DNA from: Haliclystus octoradiatus
Taxonomy: Eukaryota; Cnidaria; Staurozoa; Stauromedusae; Haliclystidae
Assembly: GCA_916610825.1 (NCBI GenBank)
Contig: OU744450.1
Span: forward strand, 14,330,489 to 14,394,488
Direction of reading: 5' to 3'
Length of the DNA stretch: 64,000 nucleotides
A program made the position numbers and the translations under genes. This document shows positions 2,103-63,958 of the stretch, one piece after another. The first letter of the stretch is position 1; every line of letters begins with the position of its first letter. Below the pieces are notes generated by a model. That model did not search any database. It was given only the letters and a program-made list of their open reading frames with translations, and was not told the origin of the DNA.

Positions 2103-3095
2103 CGTTTTCTCATGCTAACTCTGACTTTTCATCTTCCTGATTCTGACCTTTTCCCGTCTTCATTCTGACTTTCCTCTTCCTAATTCTTACTTTTCCTCAT
2201 CTTCATTTTGAGTTTTCACCATCTTCATTCTGACTTTTCCTCATCTTCATTCCGACTTTTGCTCTTCCTAATTCTGACTTTTCCTCATCTTCATTTTGAG
2301 TTTTCACCATCTTCATTCTGACTTTTCCTCATCTTCATTCCGACTTTTCTTCTTCCTAATTCTGACTTTTCATCATCTTCATTCTGACTTTCCTCATCTT
2401 CATTCCGACTTTTCCTCTTCCTAATTCTGACTGTTCATCATCTTCATTCTGAATTTTCCTCATCTTCTTTCTGACTTTTCCTTATCTTCATTCTGCCTTT
2501 TCCTCATCTTCATTCTGACTTTTCCTCTTCCTAATTCTGACTTTTCATCATCTTCATTCTGACTTTTCCTCATCTTCATTCCGATTTTTCCTCTTCCTAA
2601 TTCTGACTTTTCCTCATCTTCATTCTGAATTTTCCTCATCTTCATTCTGACTTTTCTCATCCTCATTCTGACTTTTTCTCATCTTCATTTCGACTTTTCC
2701 TCATCTTCATTCTGACTTTTCTCATCCTGATTCTGACTTTTCCTCATCTTCATTTTGACTTTTCCTCATCTCCATTCTGACTTTTCCTCATCTTCATTCT
2801 GACCTTTCCTCATCTTCATTCCGACTTTTCCTCTTCCTAATTCTGACTTTTCATCATCTTCATGCTGACTTTTCCTCATCTTCATTTTGACTTTTCTCAT
2901 CCTCATTCTGACTTTTCCTCATCTTCATTCTGACTTTTTTCATCCTCATTCTGACTTTTCCTCATCTTCATTTGACTTTTCCTCTTCGTAATTCTGACTT
3001 TTCCTCACCTTCATTCTAGCTTTTCTCATCCTCATTCTGACTTTTCCTCTTCCTCATTCTGACTTTCTCTAATCCTCATTCTGACCTTTCTTCGT
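2103..3095. repeat. Polypyrimidine minisatellite, unit about 22 bp, about 45 imperfect copies
   Basis: The plus strand is a run of near-repeats of TGACTTTTCCTCATCTTCAT plus a TC, alternating with variants containing CTCTTCCTAATTC and 21-bp versions. The pyrimidine bias is extreme (the minus strand is correspondingly purine-rich), so it could adopt triplex (H-DNA) structure. The open frame on the minus strand with repeating MRKxQNED-like peptides is a product of the repeat and is not counted as a gene. Confidence 0.92.
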
Positions 3096-10200: not shown

Positions 10201-13200
10201 ATGCCAAGTTCGGGTGGAAAAGTGCGCTCATCTGCTAATGCACCTGATTCTTCAGGTGTCAGTACAAATGAAAAAATCTTACGTGATTGTCACTCGTTGT
10301 ACATTGACGAAACCAAAGGTAAGAAGCGGCCTGAGCTTGCTAAATAGATATGACACGATTTCAAATTACCAGTTACTTTGCTACATTGATTTCGGAATCA
10401 GCTTGCCTGTGTTACGAAATAGATTCCTATATCACATTAATCATACTGTGTTACATTTGATCTTAAGTTAATCACACTAATAGAATAGGCCTTGCGGCAA
10501 TAGCTAGCTGTTAAGCATCAACAGGCCCTGAACCGGGGCTACTAACAAACATAGCATGCATCAGCTAGAGAGTGGGCATCAGCCATCACATGTTACGTTA
10601 ATTTTAAATCACTGCATAGAACATTTGAATATGTTTCTCCATTTATGGGATATCCTATTTATGCACGATTTATCAAATACTGATTTTTCTTCCAGGTTTA
10701 ATTTCAATTGCTGATTCTGTTGGCATAAGTTTGCTGGCCCCAAGAAAGAAAATCACTGTCATGTTGATGGGGAACCATTCTGCAGGGAAAAGTTCGTTCA
10801 TCAACTGGTTAGTTCCACGACCTCTCACTCTCTCAGTCTGCAGAGTGATACATAATCAAAATTGAGCAGCTCACTTAAATTTCACTATAGACCTAAGTTA
10901 TATGAATGATCAGATCTTATTGCTTGATAATATAAAATATAGAATTGTCACAAAGATGAGGCAAAGCCTTTTCAAAAGAGTTTCATGCGTTTCAACTGAC
11001 TGATGATCGCAAAACAAATGTGTGAAGAAACTCTGAGTTTCGGAAAAGGCTTTTGCCTCATCTTTGTGTCATTTCTATATTCTGCTCTGTCTCAACAAAC
11101 ATTGAGCACTCTCACATACCTGTGTTCAGTTCACCTCATATTATATTGTATAATAAACGTTGATGTAAGTCTGTTTGTTTGTATCTACTGTATTCGAGAT
11201 TCACGCTGCACATGGTAAACATATCGAAACCAAACTTTCCGTGGGGGTGTGTTATCATTATTTCTGGCAACATGGGCCATGTTTCATGTTCGTATTTTTA
11301 TATTCCTTTAATTGGCATCCCGAAGCGTATTTTTTCGTATGACTTTCTCTCTTTCTCAATCATATAAGGGACAGCAAACAGCAATGATTGTTTGCCAGAT
11401 TCTATTCTCTATTTTGATTTTATAGTCATGGAAATGGTTAGGCCTACAGATTTAAACATAATATTAATTATCCTGCATGCCATGCATAGGCCTACCCTAC
11501 ATGTACAGTAGCTGCCAGCAGAGTTAATAAATAGTAAGTCAGACTCAACACAGAACGACAATCTACATATACAAAATTCCAATTCACAGGTAAAATAAAT
11601 AAGAAATACTGAATATAAAGTGTTTTATTAAAAAAAAGAAACTTTAATTTATCAATGTCAATCAAATTGGATATTTAAGAAGAATGAGAAAAGAGCCTGT
11701 TATCGTTATTCCCATTGCCATTGTAACAATTGATTGCATTTCTTTGCTTACTCATAAGTCAGGAATAGTACAGTCAATATCGCATAATATATTATGATTT
11801 TGTTTGGCTGGAATTATTCATAAAATATTTGAATGTTGACATTGCAAGAATCGCAATTTGTACGTGTGATGTCTGATTTTGAATTACAATATTTAAATCA
11901 AGAATTTTCTGGAAAAGGCAGCAAGGTGATTTAACTTTGCAAGATAAACTTGAGACTTACATAAAAAGGGTATTCGTTTCTTTGTTTATATAGTAAATCA
12001 ATTAGAAAGATGTTATTGTAATGTAGTTTGAGCTAGTTTTATAGAGTCAGTGATATTCATGAACAGCGATTTTGAATTAAATACGTTATTTTCCCCGGTG
12101 CGGGAAGCAATAACGTACTATGCGATATTAATCTGGAAAGCAATGACAATTCATTATTGTAACTTTTTCAGGTACATAGAGGAGCATGTCCAGAAAACTG
12201 GTGTTGCCATTGAAACACAAGGCTTTACAGTTGTAACCAGCGGCAAGAAGAAGGAATCCTTAACGGTATGCTATGGGCTTGCTATAATCAACTTTATATA
12301 GGCCTACATATCTTAGTTTTCCTTAAATTTCTATAGTGATACGTTTTTGTGAAAATGTCGTCAATAAGGTCAACAAAAACACGTTATTGAGGATGTTATT
12401 AATATCGGCCGGAAAAACTGTTTTTAGATTTGAATTATTCAATGTTTGAAGATGTTAGTTATAGTTTAGTTGAATTATTTACATGAAGCATGGCCTTTTT
12501 AAAACTCTTGAAAACGCAAATTTGAGTTGCACTATCTTAGTTCTTATAATATCATTTTGTTATTACCTACAATCATTTGGCACTATTGCACATAGGCCTA
12601 GCTATCATGAGTCTTTATACTTCGCAATATATCTGTTTCTCTGATGATATTTTGACAACTTTAGCATGCAGTAATGTATTGCTCATTGTATTTCTATAGG
12701 GAAAACACACTGACACTTGGCTTTGAATTTTTTTGTTAACAGGGGAATGCGACATTTCATCTTTATCAACATCTGAAACCATTGCAAGATATATCAGGTT
12801 CATATCAGTTGTTAATTAATACAAACTTTCAACTTGGCTCCCACTCTAAAGCTGTAGTGTATTAGCTAACAGTGTTTCTATTATTAATTAAGGCGTTGGA
12901 GAATATGTAACGACAGAAATATCAACATCAAAACAGAAACGCTTTAATTTGGTAATGTTTGTTGACACACCTGGGCTTGTTGATGGCGACATGCTTTATC
13001 CATTTGATGTGAACACTTCAATTGAATGGCTTGGTAAGATCATTTTCAATTTATCATGCATTATTTTCTTATTTGCTTCAATTCTGAGAAAAAAAATCAC
13101 TAAGTTCATGAACTTGAATCTTGATATTATTCATGAACACTTTAACAGTTCACAAGCAGATAATGAAAATGAAGTCATTTAGTGTTCACTAGCAGTTTTC

Positions 13201-16200
13201 ACAAGGGCTAAAAGGTCTAGCTTGTTTTTATGTAACGTGTTGTTCGCCCAACTATTGGAAGTAAGTAATTTACCCAGTATCCCCTTACTGAAAGTGCCAT
13301 ACCGTACCACTCTTCTATTTTTAGATTAGTGGCTCTCTTCGCTAAAAGCAATGATTTTAAATACTATTTATTAATCTCAGTCGCAACACTGCAGATCAAT
13401 TTCAACAGATTGCATGGCAGATATGCCTTGATTGTCAATGCGCAACAATGTGCCATAGCTATTTACAATGCAATCCCCCTTGGACCTAACTAACTATTGT
13501 AGACCTTAATTAATCTGTTTGATATGTGTTTGCTGTATTTTTAATATTAGGTGGACTCTGCGATTTGATCTTTGTCTTCTTTGATCCTATTGGACAAGCC
13601 CTCTGCAAAAGAACCCTCAACATTGTTGGTGAGATCAATATCTTGTTTATAGTCAAACTCAATTTTCAAAATACACTGGAAGATGTGCTACTCTTTCACA
13701 ATCAATAACTTATACAAAATATTTGTTTTATTATTATTATTTTTATTACTGTCCAATCCATTTTACTGCTTTTGTTGACATCTCACCATCAGTTGTTTTC
13801 CAAGAAAATACCAACAAATAAGTTCTAGCAGCAGAAATGAAAAACATCTGAGAAAAAAAACATGACTTAATTTTATTTCAACTAAAATCAAGTGCCAGGA
13901 GGATTATATATAGTCCTTGTAACATGAATCACTTGATTGATCTGATAAAGACTTTTACTTTTGTAAAACAAATCAGCAGACAAGGAATCATTTCAACAGA
14001 AAGTAAATGCTATACAGTCAAACCTGTTATAACGGTCACCTCTATATAGCAACCATCTGTCTATAGTGGTCACTTTTGCAATATCTAAAATAGTATTTTC
14101 TATTGAATCAAACCTGTATATAAAGGCCATGTGTCTTTAATGGTCAATTTATCTACCTCTCGTGGCTGGCTGTTATATACAGGTTTCACTATATCTATTT
14201 CACATATAATTAGTCATTTCTTAACTGATTGTTGTCTGCCATTAGTTAAAGTGGGAATAAACCCCCAGACTATCTTTACACATGTAGTAGAACCCGACGT
14301 GAAAAAAACAATGGCGTAATTTTTTTTTCGATCTGGAAATTATTTCTTGGTGAAAAATGCCTTAAAAGTGGTGTTTTGACCCAAATGTCCCTGAGGAAAA
14401 AAAAGGGATTGGATCTAGCTTTATGACGACAAAGTCACAAGTCGTGTGGTTTTTCTAATAGACTTTAGATCGGATTAATCACGCGATGTTATGTTTGAGA
14501 TGGCGTAGCTCTGTAACGGCAATCTATTATTCTCTCCCACAAAACTGAGGTAAGGAAGAACATATAAACTCAAGAGTAGCAAAATTCCAGATGATTTAAT
14601 GATTTTAAAGTTCACGAATTTGAAGAAAATAAAAATCAGAAAATATTTCATTCGTAGCGCGCGTTATACATATTATATTTTGACATATCATTCTCACACA
14701 TATTTAACACATATCAAAAGATTCTCTGGTGACCACAAAAGCTAGCTAAGTAGAATTTATTGTTTGTAAGCATATGTCTGGACTGAAAATTGAGTATTCT
14801 TTCAAAGTTGAGCGTAAATATCAAAATGTACGGTGGGAAACGCTATTAAAGGTTGGTTTATAGTCCTCTTTTCACAGAAACGAAATCTGTCCATCTGATT
14901 TATCGTATCTGTAGAAAGGTATTTTGTGCAAAGTAGCTTATGCACTGTATTACTGCATCCTATAATTAACTACAGATTGTGACATGATGCTAACATATGT
15001 TCTACTTTCTTGCCAAAGGAATGAATACTAGCTAGTATGGTAAAAAAAATTGGTGGCGTATGTGTAATCAGGAACGAGACTTCACATTGCAAAACCCTAA
15101 TTTTGTTAATCAGATAACGTTGATAGAGAGGGTAACAATTTATGCAATGAAGATATACCGCAAAACCGAAAAATGATAGAATATGCATTACTGTAGTTCT
15201 AGTATATGGCTGTAAACTTGAATAAGAACGTCCAAGCCCTCATATCATGTTTGTACTATTTTCCGATATTTTATAGAATTTTACAGTGTAATGTACTGAA
15301 GAATTTTCGATGGACTGTATTGATGATGGATGTACTGAAGAATTTATAATAATTGAATGCTTGGTAAATAAATGATGAACACTTTGTTAGACTATTGGAT
15401 GTAATATATCTATCTACAGTCGTATAAACTATACGATTACATGGTTTAAGTTTTACTAGACAAACATCGATTTCAAACTTAAATTTTGAAATGATAATTG
15501 AAAAATGTCTATTTAATAATTTGGTAATAGTTAAATAAATCCGAAAAAGTACAATTAATACTTTGCAGTACCATCTATCTTGAGGAAAAGTCGTCTGTGC
15601 ATGACTGTGCAAATCGAGTCAGTTTACATTCACATCTAGATCATGAAAAGGATATCTTATAGAAATATTTACTCGAGAACAACTTGCAGATAGAGTTAAA
15701 AATAGCTATATAACTTATATAGCGTAGGATAAAGCTATTTCGAAGGGTACGTGTCTACTAATTAAGATTTGAGAAGTACTGCGGTCACCCAGAATACGTA
15801 ACTAATATGTGTCACTAGACTAGTCACAAAGGAACACTCGCACCGCCTGACATTTGTGTTAATCCGCAATCTATATCAGATTCATCGCGCTTAATGACGC
15901 TACGAGAAATTATTTCGACTGAGCGTTTCAATAGATTTTATTCTGCTCCTGAAATCACAAATTGTATCTTTTTTACGTAATTCGCGAGTTTATATGTTTG
16001 TTCATGGCTCAGCCTTGTCAGAAATTTTTTTTGTGTGACTTCTCGGAGCTAGGTCACCTCAAAGATAACGTCGCGTGATCAGCACACTCTTAAGTCTGTT
16101 AGACAAACCGCACGACTTGTGACTTTGTCGTCATAAAGCTAGATCCAATCCCTTTTTTTTCTCAGCGACATTTGGGTCAAAACACCACTTTGAAGGCGTT

Positions 16201-18710
16201 TTTCGCCAAGAAATAATTTCCAGATCGAAAAAAAAATTACGCCATTGTTTTTTTCACGTCGGGTTCTACCACATATGTAAAGATAGTCTGGGGGTTTATT
16301 CCCACTTTAATTTTGAAAGAAAAAATGTCATTTTATAAATGAATAATGATAACCATAATTTTGTTGAACAATCTAAAAGAAATAACACTGTAATGTTATG
16401 AAGTATCTATATTCTGGATAAAACGGTTTGAAGTGTTCTGGTGATGTGATTTTGCCATATTAATTTAGCATTTTCAATTTGTTGAATTTTTATTTTTCTA
16501 TTGCAGAAATCCTCAACGAAAAAAACTCAGACAAATTGCGTTTCTATTTGACAAAGGCAGATACAGCTGGAACAGAAAGTGACCGTCAAAGGGTGTTGAT
16601 GCAAATCACACAAGAACTATGTAAACGCCCAGGCCTCAACAAATGTGGATTTGATATGCCCACCATCTTTGTACCTTCTCTTGTTGATAAGGTATGTTGG
16701 CTATGGTGTCAATCAGGGTTTTCTCAGGTCAATGTTGGTTTGACCTAATGTCCTTTATATACAGTAAATATTAGCCAAATATATAATTGTCCACTTGGGC
16801 TTTCCAATTACCCTCGAACCTCTGCAGGGATTGGGCAGGATAACATTATTCATTTATCTGAGATATTGTTATTTTTCCAAGTTTTCAAAATCTTTTTCAG
16901 CCTCCACGATGTGAAAATCAAATTGAGTCTCTGTGCCGCACAATTGAAAAAACAATCACTCAAACTATTCAAAATACTTTGAATACTTTAGAAAAAGACT
17001 GTGGAGAGATTGCTGATCGCATTGATGCTGTCTTGCTTTCTGATAGGTTAGTTCATTTTTTCCAATTTCACAATCAGTGTGCTATATATTTCTAGGTAAA
17101 AATATACAATTAATTTCAATAACTGCCTAATTCCGTTGTACTATTGACAGTCATGCTATTTTGAAAGCTACATGAGTATTGTACGATTTTCAGGAATTTT
17201 CCATCCAAATATTTATCTAATTTCATTATTCCTTGCATACGTCCTGTTTATCTAGAAAGAACTTGCAAGTGTTGAATAATCACACATATTCACAGACCAA
17301 TTGATGTCAACTTTTGAAGAGGACCATTTTATAATATTATTATTTTAGCTCCTGAATTTGATTTCTGGAACTGATGCAAATCTTGATTCTGAGTGCATCA
17401 TTTATAACTAGCAGAAAGGATAGATATACTGCTATAGAATATGACATATTCATCTGCTTTTGGTATACTTTTTTTATTGTATTTCTCTGTTTCTTTGGTG
17501 CCCTTTCACGTGAGTAGGCTGTTCATTCTTAATAACTTGTTCTTTTTCTACTATAATTTATTTATTTTAGAGGTCATTTCATGCATAATGATTTTGTGTA
17601 AATATTTCCAATCTTGAATTCACAGGCATTAATGTTAATTTTTGCATTTATTTTTTCTAGTAAAACATGGGGTAAGAATTTTCGCCAACGCATAGTCTCT
17701 TTTATGTTCGGTTCATTTGGAATGTTACTATTGATGTTTCTTGCAATTTCTCAATTGGCTAAACGACCCGAGTTGAATGTTCTAGAATTAGCTCCTTATT
17801 TGGTAAGTGCTCACTTTTCCATTTTTGAAACAATAATATGGTAATAAAGCTGAAAGCATTTTCATGTTATTTGTTGGGTTTAAAAATTAAGCCTTATTTT
17901 CTATTCCTAGGCGATGAAAGGGGCTAAGGGTCCCCTTTAGCTAGACCTAGAGGTATGGGCATGCTTTCCCAGAAATTCTTTGAATTCAATCATAGCTACT
18001 GTATTAAATAGCTTGCAAATTATTCAGGCTCAAAGACAACTGTTGATTCTTTAAGTCAATAATTCCTGAGGTCTATCTTATTGTATTGAAAATTATTTTT
18101 GTTTCTTACATCGTCAGGAGTCAGTTGATTTGGTATGGTCTAACGTTCCTTATGATTATGTTTGGCATACAACCGTTGCTCTACTTGTTTCCTCGTTATT
18201 AGCAGTTATAATTTCAAGGGTGTTTTGGAGGTATGAGTGAATTGAAGATTTTAGTCTCAACAATTTAATATATTATTGGGATCTATTATACCTTACAATG
18301 CAATTAATTTTTGTTTATCAGAACAAAACAAACTTTGTCAAGAAAGCAACGTCGTCTACTAGAAGAAAAAAAGAATTATGTCCAAACTCATGTCAAACCG
18401 CAAAAGGTGAATTGATTACTACTTGATAACTTCACCTCAACTTCACCAATGGCATCGTTTTTGTCATGCTATTTGTGTTACCATGGTGCTATGTGATCAT
18501 TAGAGTTAAGATTAACTTGAAAAACATAAACTTGAGTTACAAAGTGTGGTACAACATCTACTTGTAAAGCGATAATCAATTTCATCCATTTATTTTTTGA
18601 AACCAAATCAATTGAATAACTTGTTTATTAACTGATGTCTTGCTGTTATTTTCTAGGAAAAACTCTACAGCGAATATCTTCAACAAAGTGTTGCAGAACA
18701 TGACTTATGA
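10201..18710 (+). CDS. Membrane-anchored dynamin/EHD-like GTPase, uncharacterised (complete, 12 exons)
   Basis: Exons: 10201-10318, 10696-10807, 12172-12265, 12743-12797, 12893-13033, 13551-13628, 16507-16691, 16901-17046, 17661-17802, 18118-18230, 18322-18406, 18657-18710. All introns are GT-AG and the phases agree, giving 440 residues. GTPase motifs: P-loop GNHSAGKSS (65-73); a putative switch I in the block TGVAIETQGFTVVTSGKK (86-103); G3 DTPGL (151-155); G4 TKAD (215-218). A helical segment (about 262-310) is followed by two hydrophobic segments (about 322-340 and 375-394) and a basic, Gln/Glu-rich tail, suggesting a membrane hairpin. The large-GTPase layout recalls EHD, dynamin-like or FZL/mitofusin-type proteins, but it has no EH domain. 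I do not recognise a named orthologue. Membrane remodelling is only an inference. Confidence 0.88.
10933..11081. repeat. Hairpin-forming inverted repeat (arms about 50 bp) in GTPase intron 2
   Basis: The left arm contains TCACAAAGATGAGGCAAAGC and then CTTTTC; the right arm has GAAAAGGCTTTTGCCTCATC then TTTGTG. Arms match with few differences and enclose about 45 bp. Looks like a small foldback MITE; no target duplication identified. Confidence 0.8.
13262..13485 (-). mobile_element. SINE copy B, minus strand, partial
   Basis: The reverse complement matches the body of the copies at 3785 and 60680: GGGGATTGCATTG, then TTGTTGCGCATTGACAATCA, TGCCATGCAATCTGTTGAAA, TTGATCTGCAGTGTTGCG, the block AGAGCCACTAATCTAAAAAT, and a terminal GTGGTACGG. 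The 5' head is missing. Lies in the GTPase intron 13034-13550. Confidence 0.78.
14015..14191. mobile_element. pogo/Tigger-like MITE (TA target)
   Basis: Begins CAGTCAAACCTGTTATAACG after a TA and ends with ACAGGTTTCACT, giving inverted termini of the CAGT-AAACCTGT type. It is closely similar along its length to the element at 58377-58546, and shares the internal block AAAATAGTATTTTCTATTGA. No ORF. Confidence 0.78.
14250..16306. mobile_element. TTAA-flanked non-autonomous DNA transposon with about 216-bp inverted repeats
   Basis: A TTAA precedes (14246-14249) and follows (16307-16310) a 2057-bp unit. The left terminal repeat (14250 to about 14466) begins AGTGGGAATAAACCCCCAGA; the right one (about 16091-16306) is its reverse complement with only a handful of mismatches over about 216 bp. 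The TTAA duplication is that of piggyBac-type elements, although the terminal bases are not the usual piggyBac CCY. The 1.6-kb interior carries no transposase that I recognise; its only open frame (15271-15612, minus) resembles nothing. It sits in the 2.9-kb GTPase intron 13629-16506. Confidence 0.88.
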
Positions 18711-28900: not shown

Positions 28901-31900
28901 TTCAGCGCCTCTCAAGTGACGAAATCCCCAATTGTCCAATCTGTTTGTATGTACCAATCGTTGCACGGATTACAAAGTGTGGTCATGTGTACTGTTGGTC
29001 ATGTATTAATCATTATCTGAAGTTGGTGAGTTTTAATTGATGCTAGTAAAAATGTCAATACTGTATTAATGAATGATAGTGATTAATACTTTATTGTTAT
29101 TGTTGTTTTGATTCCAAAGGGTACAAAAAAATACAGAAAATGTCCCATATGCTTTGATGACATCCAGTATGAAGACCTAAGAAGGTAAATAATGTTTTCT
29201 TGGTATATAAATCTGTCTAATATGAATTGTGTCAAATTTTACAATAGATTGAATTTTTCAATTTACAATAAGTGTTATGAAGACGCAAATGTAAAATAAA
29301 ATGAATTATATATAAATATGGGTCACTACGTTAGATAAGATGAATTCAACAATGTGTTCATGTTTTTAAGCCTTCAAATTTGAACTATTTGCAAAAACAA
29401 ACTAGGGTCTTGAAACTTGATTTTTATTGAATTCATTAGGGGTGTGACAATTGTTTTGAAAATTTGGTTCTGCCGAACATCTGCGCCAATTTTTGCTAAT
29501 TAAGTAAATAAATATAATATAAAATAATTGGCATTGACATATCAACCAATTTGAAAGATATATGAATCACGGAAAAATGTCGCTTTGTTGTGTGGACAGG
29601 TACACTTCTGCTTAACCATATTTCCATTTATTTTATTGAGCTAATTGCAGAATTTATAATTTTATATTGTTTGATCATTATAAACCAAGTATATTCGTGT
29701 TATCTCCTGCTCTTTTGTATTGATTTGTCTGAATTGGAAACAATCGGCAAAAATCGATCAATCGCCCGATTGTTATGACTGATCGGCGTTGAACATCGGA
29801 AATTTCATTATCGTCTCACCCCTGAAATTCATCTGGAACAGGTGTAGACAAAGTAGAATAATATACTACTTGGGGAAGGAAAGAAAACTCCTGAGGGGAA
29901 ATAAAACTCACTATTTCCTGAGGCAGTCATGCATTAAGTGCTTTAGTATATTCATGGTTTTAACTAGACAAGAAAGACGCAGCCAAAAGTAATAATGTAA
30001 TTGAATTATTCATATTACAGTAGGGTCTACTGCGAAACGCAACAATAACAATGAAACGTAAAAGAAATGAGAATTACGCATAATTAAAACTTAAACATTT
30101 TTAACTCACTTGAAAGGTGACATGATCTCAAACATTGGATTGGTTTTATTTGCTTGATAAATGCTTATTGCTACGTTTGCTTCGGTAAAAGCCCCTGCGG
30201 CTTGCGTTTAACCAGGAGCAGTAGTGCAACGAGAGATCCAACGTTTCTTTCTGTTTGTACTAGCCTTGAAAACTGTATGAGAGATTGAGAGTATGCTACT
30301 TACATTACATTTCCTCTATCAACGCTGTGATAGTGCTAAATGCATTCTTTACATTACACAATTCTTTATTTTCAACGTATGAAAGATTGAAAAATCGTTG
30401 TGAACTTTTTAATTTGTCATATTGTTGCAATGAAGAGTTTCGTTGGTAACAGCGACAGGACATAACAACTTATTTCCTGCTCTTGGAGGGATATAGTCGA
30501 TTTAATGTACTTCACGTGACCAGCAATCAACCAATCACAAACATGGTTAAAAGCCATGAAAATACTAATTAATTTTATCTCATTTTTCCGGTATCGAAAT
30601 CATTGTATTTTTTTCAAGCTCTTAGGCAGGGTGTCACAAAAGTTTGATCTTCCAGGAACAATTGTAAACCTTCTGGGATTGAATTTATAATGCTTCATAG
30701 TTTTGAAGAGTTGATTAAAGTTTCAGAAATTTGACTTAGCTTGAAGCAAAATGCATGGATTTCAAAACACAAAAAATATGAAATCCAAAAATAATAAATG
30801 TTGGATAAGAAATAATCGTGATAAGATTGGAAACCTTCTGAATTTGTGCTGGCCTTCCGGGAACCAGGTTCCCAGGATCCCGCACTTTGTGACAGCCTGC
30901 TCTTAGGTTACTGTTAACCCAATTCATATTTTTGAAATTTGGGTGTGACATTGGTAGGCTCATTAATATTTTGCTTTGTTCTTTTACCCAAGTGCTGTGT
31001 CTGAAGCTAAGCACAAATTCACAGTTGGCGACAAGATTACAATGGTCTTGATGAAAAGGGAAAAGGTTCTTGGAGTTACTTTCAGACATTTCAATTATTA
31101 ATTCTAATTTTGTTGCAGATTTATTTAACAGTTTTTATCTTTTCTCAGGGTTCATCTTGTGCCCATCCAGTCAATCAGCCAGGTAATTTATATCATCATC
31201 TACAGTATGTATATTATATCACACATTGAATGTACATACAACCTTGTCCCAGTAACAATCACCTACTGTATCATTTTATTATCAGATGATATGAGTTATG
31301 CAAAACTAATCCCTGCATCTAATGAAGCAATTTTGAATGACATTGTTTTGCCAGAGAAGACAGAATTAATGAAACAGCTTGAAAGCGCTATAATTGAGCA
31401 GGTGAACAAAAATTGCATTATTGTTTGATAATTTGTGAAGTATTCAATTATTGTTGTTAATATTATATTAAATATTAAATATTAATAAATATTATATTCT
31501 AGAATGACGAAATATGCTTCATTGAGAATGCAATTTCTGCACTTACGGTAGGTTTGTCATTATTATTATTGATCATACAGTGAACCTGTATATAATATAC
31601 AGTATATTACAACCATCTTTGAGATGTACAGCAATTGACCACTGTACACAGATGGCCTTTATATACAGGCTTGATTTAATAGACAGTTTTATTTTAGACA
31701 TACCAAAAGTTACCACTATAGATGTGTGACCATTTGACTGTATTCATTTGATCAATTGGGCATAAGAGTACGAGATATCTTTTAACAACATCAAACATAC
31801 AGTGAAACCTTTATATACAGTACCAACCAACTTTGAGATACAGAAATTAACCACTATCCTGGTGATACACACATGGCTACTGTATAGAGGTGACTGTTAC

Positions 31901-33998
31901 AACAGGTTTGACCATGGTGGTATATTGCTAAATGAAGATTTAACACTAATCAGAATGACATTTTTTTTATTTAAGGAGAAGGAAACCATTTTACGTCATG
32001 TGTTGAGTGAAAATGTGAGCTGTTTATCAAATTTTTCAACGTCAACAATTGATGATACAGATAATGAAATAAAACATGATGACAATCAAGTTAGTACAAA
32101 TAGAACTTATAAGCAAGCAATGTCAATGTGTGATCAATAGAAAAGGTAACATTTTTAATCTTGATCTTCTGTATCCAGGTGGTTGATGGCTGTGATAGTA
32201 TTGTGAATCTGGTTGATGGTCGTAATGCAACCGACGACAAACAATCAAATTACTACTATTTTTACCAAGGTATGATACAGTTGTCTCAACGCAGCATTAT
32301 GCATTTTCCACAGTTGATGATTTTAAAAACAGGATAATTTCCAGAATGTAATCATTGGCAAATTTCTGTATGGATTGTGGAAGCTCACCCACTGAGCTAA
32401 CGGTTTAGTTTATGTACTGTTAATGTGACTGTGCATGTAATATTTATAGTGTACATTGTACAACACTGTTATTTCATATCTCTTGGTTTCCTTTCAGCTC
32501 AAGATGGTCAGAATCTGTTTATTCATCCAGTCAATGTCCGTTGCCTCGTTAGAGAATATGGTTCGTTAGAGCAATGCCCTGAAATGATCACAGCCAGTAT
32601 CTTGAACATTGAGAGTCTATCTGTTAACGAGGTAAATTAGACAGCTGCAGTCAGTTTGGCTCAATATCCATGGCTCAATATCCATTATGCAGTTCAGAGC
32701 TGGATATTTTAATTTATAATACATTGTATTTGCATTTGTTCACTTGACTTGCTGTATAACCAATCAAGCATTAGTGGTTTGCTGTTTCATACATGTTTAC
32801 TGTAACTGTGAGATAAATTAAGTTCCCTTTAAATTCTGTTCCAGGAAACAAGAAAGAAATTCCGCTACATTAGCCATCTGCCAAAGACATGTGAATTTAC
32901 AATCTGTGAGCTGATGCTTAGACCACCATACGTATCCAAGGCAACACTTACATTCTTTGCTGATGAATTCCGTAAAAGAAAACAACAAAGACAACAGAAG
33001 AAAAGAGAAGACAGGAGGAGCGAAAGAAGATACGAGGCAACTAATAGATTTGATGATTATGGCAGAGGTATAGATTTTGACTAATATACAATCCATTTGT
33101 GAATATTTTGAACATTGTCAATCCTTGAGCTACTAATTATTTATTTTATTATCAATTGTTCTAGAAACTATTAAAGCTGAGCCCTATGAAGATATTCGAT
33201 TAACCAGCTTAACGGAATTCCCAGAGCAGTTGAATATACCATATAATGGTGCTTTTGGCTGTGATAGTCCACTTTCTGAAGCATCTGATTCACCTCTTTT
33301 ACAATCACCCAACTATGAAGTATCAAGCGCAATGAACCTAACCATGTCATTTGCACAGACCCTTGGAAAGTCAGTGGGCAACAGCAAGGAATGGAAACCT
33401 CTCATGAAAAAGAAATCACTTGCAGCCTCAACTGGTAAGTAATTACACATGGATATAGTGATCTCCAAAGGGATTCCTATGAAATTCTGAATTTTATTTA
33501 TCAAATGGTATATTGCAGTTAACATATTGTAAAAAGCTATAGTGGATATTTGCAGAATCCTTTTAATGTTGTCATAGCTACATGTCCAGAAAGACAAGAG
33601 GGAATAGAAATATCTGTCATTTTTATTGGATTGACTTATATTTTGAAATGTATTTGACTTATGATTCTGATATTAAACATCAACTATACCGGTAACCATA
33701 ATGGTAACAGCCTTCAAGGCAGTTAATTTGAGGCGAAACATTCAACATCTTTATTATTTATCTTGTTTCAGATGAGAATGGCTGGCCATCACACGTCGAA
33801 TGTAATAGTAGTGACGATGCTAATTATGATTCAGATGCAACACCTGTGCCGTCATACGCTGACGCATTTGTAATGGCACTTCAACTGCCAAAAGAAAGTA
33901 GAAATGCTGATGTTGAGCAACCACTCAACTTATCTAAGAAGCAGAAAAAGAAATCAAAACATGTTTTATTTTCAACTGGTTCAACCAGGAAATACTAG
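25951..33998 (+). CDS. RNF10: RNF10, RING-finger protein (complete, 16 exons)
   Basis: RNF10 is a RING E3 ligase reported to act on 40S ribosomal proteins and, in vertebrates, in myelin and synapse-to-nucleus signalling. Exons: 25951-26029, 26115-26275, 26834-27021, 28585-28675, 28906-29025, 29120-29184, 30993-31065, 31149-31182, 31286-31401, 31503-31547, 31976-32089, 32179-32269, 32498-32631, 32845-33067, 33165-33434, 33772-33998. Phases agree, giving 676 residues (human 811). The N-terminus is Ser/Arg/Lys-rich and disordered, then [10 protein letters not shown] and VFLQANCRFVV. The C3HC4 RING has all eight ligands (C183, C186, C198, H200, C203, C206, C221, C224). The conserved [31 protein letters not shown] and SHLPKTCEF blocks follow, then a basic Arg/Gln/Lys helix and the family's C-terminal [11 protein letters not shown]. 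The start codon (25951) is the first in-frame ATG; a longer frame would need TTG. Confidence 0.96.
27571..27665. mobile_element. Partial pogo/Tigger-like MITE in an RNF10 intron
   Basis: Begins CAGTCTAACAACCACCTCTA after TA and shares GATAGTGGTCAATCTTGCAA and TTTTTCTATTGAATCAACCT with the copies at 14015 and 58377. The right end is lost. Confidence 0.6.
29437..29824. mobile_element. hAT-type MITE
   Basis: Termini are inverted: left TAGGGGTGTGAC, right reversed CAGGGGTGAGAC. Both have the A-G-GGTG form typical of hAT elements. Flanking 8-bp sequences GAATTCAT and AAATTCAT match at 7 of 8 positions, as expected of a hAT target duplication. 388 bp with no transposase. A related fragment (ACTAATCGGC to ATCGTTATCGTCTCAC) occurs at 63020-63131. 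Lies in the RNF10 intron 29185-30992. Confidence 0.75.
31578..31740. mobile_element. pogo/Tigger-like MITE (TA target) in an RNF10 intron
   Basis: CAGTGAACCTGTATATAATA at the left and CATTTGACTG at the right, flanked by TA on both sides. Diverged member of the family at 14015 and 58377, in opposite orientation (the internal TGGCCTTTATATACAGGCTT reads inverted). Confidence 0.7.
31800..31912. mobile_element. Second, truncated pogo/Tigger-like MITE
   Basis: Starts CAGTGAAACCTTTATATACA after TA and ends near ACAGGTTTGAC, where the terminal CTG is altered. Only 59 bp from the preceding copy, in the same intron (31548-31975). Confidence 0.62.

Positions 33999-34333: not shown

Positions 34334-63958
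<29,625 letters not shown>

Follow-up and report, generated by a model that had tools for sequence, protein, structure and literature searches.

A predicted hairpin-anchored NTPase, probably of the EHD/sarcalumenin branch, in the staurozoan Haliclystus octoradiatus

The 64,000-nucleotide stretch of Haliclystus octoradiatus contig OU744450.1 analysed here (hereafter the window; assembly GCA_916610825.1) carries a real and apparently intact gene. Its product, as judged by sequence comparison, probably belongs to the EHD/sarcalumenin branch as a divergent protein with a hairpin anchor, akin to a group of bacterial proteins with the same order of parts. We consider it fairly likely that this is an intact, single-copy gene for a membrane-anchored NTPase of that branch, built of a G domain, a linker, a transmembrane hairpin and a basic tail, and that the protein mediates nucleotide-driven membrane tethering, bending or fusion.

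Twelve exons on the plus strand (Table 1) join into 1323 nt including a TGA stop, or 440 codons, with GT..AG boundaries at all 11 introns, and the in-phase model of 12 exons and 440 residues proposed in the first-pass annotation was thereby reproduced. The joins of exons 2–7 are spanned by homology (residues 43–255), whereas exons 8–12 are supported by their open frame, splice signals and hydrophobic pattern, and not by sequence homology. Over the 179 codons of exons 8–12 the probability of a stop-free frame by chance is about 1.3e-6, assuming 34% GC and taking the splice sites as chosen. The presence of a 2-kb inverted-repeat element inside intron 6 might point to a decaying or unexpressed gene, but we regard this as very improbable given that all exons are open and that the splice dinucleotides and the G1, G3 and G4 motifs are intact.

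Table 1 Features of the predicted hairpin-anchored NTPase gene (window positions).
Feature	Position	Strand	Content and basis
Exon 1	10201..10318	+	Start codon and hydrophilic N-terminus, residues 1-39; no N-terminal hydrophobic window
Exon 2	10696..10807	+	P-loop G1 GNHSAGKSS (10770-10796); aligns with bacterial and EHD G1
Exon 3	12172..12265	+	Switch I region, EHVQKTGVAIETQGFTVV; matches bacterial VQ-TG-A...FT
Exon 4	12743..12797	+	G domain
Exon 5	12893..13033	+	G3 DTPGL (12964-12978)
Exon 6	13551..13628	+	G domain, LIFVFFDP
Exon 7	16507..16691	+	G4 TKAD (16551-16562); possible G5 SLVD (16677-16688), by position only
Exon 8	16901..17046	+	Linker from G domain to hydrophobic segments, supposedly helical; basis is the open frame
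Exon 9	17661..17802	+	First hydrophobic segment, residues about 321-341 (~17692-17754)
Exon 10	18118..18230	+	End of acidic loop (loop charge -3); second hydrophobic segment, residues about 371-395 (from ~18157)
Exon 11	18322..18406	+	Basic part of tail (charge +6 over the 15 residues past the second window)
Exon 12	18657..18710	+	End of tail and TGA stop codon
AATAAA	18758..18763	+	Possible polyadenylation signal, read in the sequence; starts 48 bases past the stop

The joined product contains the G1 (GNHSAGKSS, residues 65–73), G3 (DTPGL, 151–155) and G4 (TKAD, 215–218) motifs listed in the first-pass annotation, together with a possible G5 (SLVD, 257–260) that is assigned by position only. 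Pfam Dynamin_N matches the G domain at 2.5e-9 (37.8 bits against a curated cut-off of 27), which bears out the initial description of a dynamin/EHD-like G domain, and MMR_HSR1 also matches at 1.1e-6. In the PDB, only chains of EHD2 and EHD4 reach E 0.001 or lower (4e-8 to 2e-7, residues 58/60–224). However, the protein gave no Pfam match up to E 10 to EHD_N, which scored 6.9e-17 in the EHD of the same genome used as a positive control, or to the EH domain, to which the control did not extend; a tail of 45 residues follows the second hydrophobic segment. Since EHD_N and EH are lacking and a true EHD with EHD_N is encoded separately in the same genome (a further frame of which is read as its EH domain), we do not regard the protein as an EHD. 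The first-pass annotation had set its reading against a best match to a well-studied family; such a match was found, to EHD2/EHD4, but membership in the EHD family is unsupported with both flanking domains missing.

Mitofusins carry a family-specific domain beyond the G domain, and neither this domain nor a GBP/atlastin-type domain appeared among the Pfam matches up to E 10. NCBIfam searches with the protein, and NCBIfam and PADLOC searches with three of its bacterial relatives, returned only weak matches to generic GTPases or LeoA. Searches of the 262-Mb, 33-contig assembly turned up other Dynamin_N matches, which we read as mitofusin and dynamin/DRP1. The EHD and a doubtful stretch of 40 residues aside, the protein search indicated a single copy of the gene, and exons 2–7 were not found in any second spliced copy.

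That doubtful stretch lies on contig 4 (locus L050, 4749–4868), is 45–48% like residues 50–88 across the join of exons 2 and 3, and has a broken P-loop and a stop. Its match (45% over 40 residues) reached E 0.048 genome-wide, and 5.9e-6 (DNA E 0.006) when only the two loci were compared. Decay of a processed copy was considered as its origin; however, when the genome was searched with exons 2–7 joined, only the hairpin protein's own locus matched, so we treat the stretch as a probable chance resemblance.

Bacterial relatives were recovered from a collection of prokaryote genomes, scanned with the protein and the Haliclystus EHD in alignment. This gave 106 pattern-matching stretches, three of which were supported by tblastn (5e-16 to 2e-15; one labelled Lentisphaerae and two labelled uncultured bacterium), a number that is no measure of abundance because detection hinged on short peptide patterns. 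A profile search within one bacterial phylum found matches in 12 of 387 sampled genomes, 11 of them of hairpin type by score (ten read whole and one, L035, in part), the twelfth (L040) being a generic dynamin-like protein of 721 residues. Within one class of this phylum, in a sample overlapping the 387 genomes, 45 of 345 genomes matched, although at least seven of these matches are fragments by profile range, one of the seven being only a C-terminal piece. GNHS(S/A)GKS is present in all 30 class loci fetched from the 45 (29 with S, one with A). The P-loops of L035 and L066 read GNHSAGKSS, the same letters as in the Haliclystus protein, whereas GNHSSGKS stands in the remaining bacterial frames that were read.

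Hydropathy profiles point to a common architecture. In the Haliclystus protein the best 19-residue hydrophobic windows past the G domain lie at residues 321–339 (KD 2.35) and 375–393 (KD 2.06), 35 residues apart, as the first-pass annotation had noted for its two segments near the C-terminus. Two windows of KD 1.5 or more follow the G domain in 25 of the 28 full-length class frames scored (67–71 residues apart in two of the 25), the second window reaching KD 1.29–1.44 in the other three. Nine bacterial relatives, which overlap the class set, all have both windows (71 residues apart in L032), and the EHD pieces compared, consisting of G domain plus linker, have no window above 0.5 past the G domain. 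The predicted order of parts is thus common to the Haliclystus protein and its bacterial relatives.

Further correspondences are the GNHS(A/S)GKS P-loop, a VQ-TG-A switch I, D(T/S)PG, KxD in G4 and a length of roughly 440–460 residues with two hydrophobic segments past the G domain. Unlike the bacterial proteins, the Haliclystus gene has introns and its product has an acidic 35-residue loop between the hydrophobic windows, and its tail of about 45–47 residues is approximately half the length of the bacterial tails (79–88 residues). No hint of function came from the gene neighbourhoods of the bacterial relatives: nine regions were fetched, the target was picked out in six, and in three it is followed by a gene that we take to be tsaB. 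Viral contigs queried with the protein or with alignments yielded 1, 164 and 26 pattern-matching stretches, none of which was confirmed as a relative, and a tblastn search of plasmids and phages with the bacterial relative L024 gave no match.

To place the G domain we compared profile scores. A profile of nine bacterial proteins scores the Haliclystus protein at 85.0 bits, L040 at 26.6 and EHDs at 148–153, with 200 shuffles of the protein reaching at most 1.2 bits, whereas an EHD profile gives 45.3 bits for the protein, 31.8 for L040 and 105–128 for the bacterial set. By these scores the protein appears closer to the bacterial proteins than to EHD, while the smallest distance is that separating EHD from the bacterial proteins, the Haliclystus protein standing further from both. 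Likeness to the bacterial set is favoured by its recovery with the Haliclystus protein in the query; a profile from 29 further bacterial frames gave 82.8 bits. The hhalign comparison with the bacterial relatives reached a probability of 99.5 over residues 43–255, and identity over the G domain is 24–29% to bacteria, about 24% to EHD and 22% to L040. In the maximum-likelihood tree, which has one outgroup, the protein groups with the bacterial proteins (SH-aLRT 88.5, bootstrap 87), and its branch is long.

These data also bear on whether the protein is a divergent animal EHD or sarcalumenin paralogue in which the EH domain was lost and a hairpin arose independently, its bacterial likeness being due to convergence and motif drift. 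We think this possible but unlikely: the bacterial profile exceeds the EHD profile, the GNHS P-loop and VQ-TG-A switch I are common to the protein and the bacterial set and absent from EHD, and the best topology is the bacterial one, with bp-RELL excluding a grouping with EHD under Q.pfam+G4 (0.038) but not under LG+C20+F+G4. On the other side, EHD is the best match among solved structures, and the AU test rejected neither the grouping with EHD nor the other alternative (p 0.078 and 0.215, respectively, under Q.pfam+G4; 0.213 and 0.193 under LG+C20+F+G4). Moreover, the hairpins are unalignable, the C-terminal half alone scoring 0.8 bits against its bacterial counterpart, which amounts to no sequence homology, and none was found for the exon 8 linker against the bacterial relatives; the hairpin common to both could therefore be convergent.

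Recent transfer of a bacterial gene into the host lineage would account for all relatives found in the prokaryote, viral and plasmid collections, EHD apart, being bacterial. The eleven introns and the low G-domain identity to bacteria make this improbable in our judgement, and favour an old eukaryotic gene, which may itself stem from an old transfer.

Sarcalumenin is a luminal protein with an N-terminal signal peptide; the Haliclystus protein, in contrast, has no N-terminal signal-like hydrophobic window by hydropathy, and its G domain would hence face the cytosol. According to PMC7016017, EHD and sarcalumenin clearly descend from bacterial proteins, the bacterial homologues closest to them have two transmembrane helices following the GTPase domain, and animals acquired sarcalumenin later by transfer, likely from kinetoplastids. 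The two-helix plan was therefore already known from bacteria. The paper names a proteobacterial source, whereas our seed loci are labelled Lentisphaerae (one) and uncultured bacterium (two); they may correspond to the proteins of that paper. The likeness to sarcalumenin, an EHD-related G domain, is taken from the description given there. Compared with the EHD family (EHD1-4, RME-1), to which it is most similar among solved structures over G domain residues 60–224, the protein differs in lacking EHD_N and in having a hydrophobic pair absent from the EHD pieces compared.

Atlastin, RNF112, mitofusin and FZL also have a G domain followed by a membrane hairpin. The Haliclystus protein resembles them in this arrangement, but kinship is an analogy only: it has no GBP/atlastin-type Pfam domain, and a separate match in its own genome is read as the mitofusin. 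The G domain and the hydrophobic pair of the initial interpretation stand, as does a position outside EHD; its appeal to mitofusin, FZL and atlastin holds only as analogy. The G4 motif of dynamin is TKLD, and the TKAD of the Haliclystus protein could be compatible with GTP. EHDs, in contrast, bind and hydrolyse ATP (PMC13282721).

Based on this layout, we propose that the protein is likely, by analogy, an NTPase that faces the cytosol and tethers or bends the membrane in which it is anchored. The charges around the hydrophobic segments (+3 before the first, -3 in the loop and +6 after the second) suggest a cytosolic G domain and tail and a luminal loop. The tail itself is mildly basic, at +4 over 45 residues, its excess lying in the 15 residues directly past the second window, which agrees with the basic tail described in the first-pass annotation. 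Against this topology, in the bacterial relatives the flanks are net basic before the windows in only seven of nine and after them in only seven of nine. By its charges, the hairpin would be inserted in the membrane so that its two ends lie on the cytosolic side and a short acidic loop faces the lumen. The G domain is separated from the first hydrophobic segment by only about 58 residues, a layout closer to that of atlastin than to that of the long-stalked dynamins, and together with the charge topology this led us to favour nucleotide-driven pairing of G domains as the mode of action. G domains on one or two membranes would pair upon nucleotide binding, and hydrolysis could then drive tethering, bending or fusion of the membrane holding the hairpin, as in atlastin or mitofusin.

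Several other features were recorded in the window and genome. The intron 6 element (window 14246–16310, 2.06 kb) has 161-nt terminal arms that are 95% complementary, and the best 40 scored of 1340 first-look genome candidates for these arms are 98–100% identical; it is an abundant inverted-repeat transposon and probably a young one. A 22-bp pyrimidine-rich tandem array of 44.5 copies at 2120–3090 explains the strong strand skew at 2–4 kb. A retroelement remnant at 38078–39601 encodes a reverse transcriptase (RVT_1, 5.8e-26) with an integrase match (rve_3) below the cut-off, and contains a 337-bp tandem duplication at 38078–38749; adjoining frames from 36728 gave no Pfam match. A DDE_Tnp_4 transposase frame lies at 42966–43613, and a frame at 51797–52498 appears related to it by eye but has no Pfam match. 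The minus-strand frame at 191–469 and the plus-strand frames at about 31100–33440, which we take to be CHCHD2/10-like and RNF10-like, respectively, gave no Pfam match when tested as single frames. No tRNA or Rfam family was detected in the 64 kb.

On the mitochondrial contig (C33, 18,316 bp), the COX1 frame contains eight in-frame TGA codons and is equally open under codes 4, 13, 5 and 9; under code 4 it keeps residues that are conserved in COX1 at AGR and ATA positions, and COX1 runs opposite to most of the other long frames to which we could give a likely name. ARAGORN finds only tRNA-Trp and tRNA-Met. The contig fits the linear, 17,922-bp medusozoan mitochondrial DNA with Met and Trp tRNAs described in PMC3519871.

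No paper on such an animal hairpin protein was found in the literature searched, which covered few subscription journals. As far as this search extends, what is new is an apparently intact animal gene with the two-segment plan beside a true EHD; unnamed relatives in other eukaryotes may well exist. We tentatively suggest, at less than even confidence, that the gene represents an old eukaryotic lineage of EHD-type NTPases anchored by a hairpin, with the anchor inherited from the bacterial stock of EHD and sarcalumenin, and that this lineage survives unstudied in cnidarians. If so, the protein would exemplify the membrane-embedded ancestral state that gave rise to the soluble EHDs. Endocytic recycling membranes are shaped by EHD proteins; with the hairpin protein encoded beside a normal EHD, a membrane-embedded and a peripheral form could be compared in one cell. 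The Haliclystus protein is also a further, so far unstudied candidate for membrane remodelling in animals.
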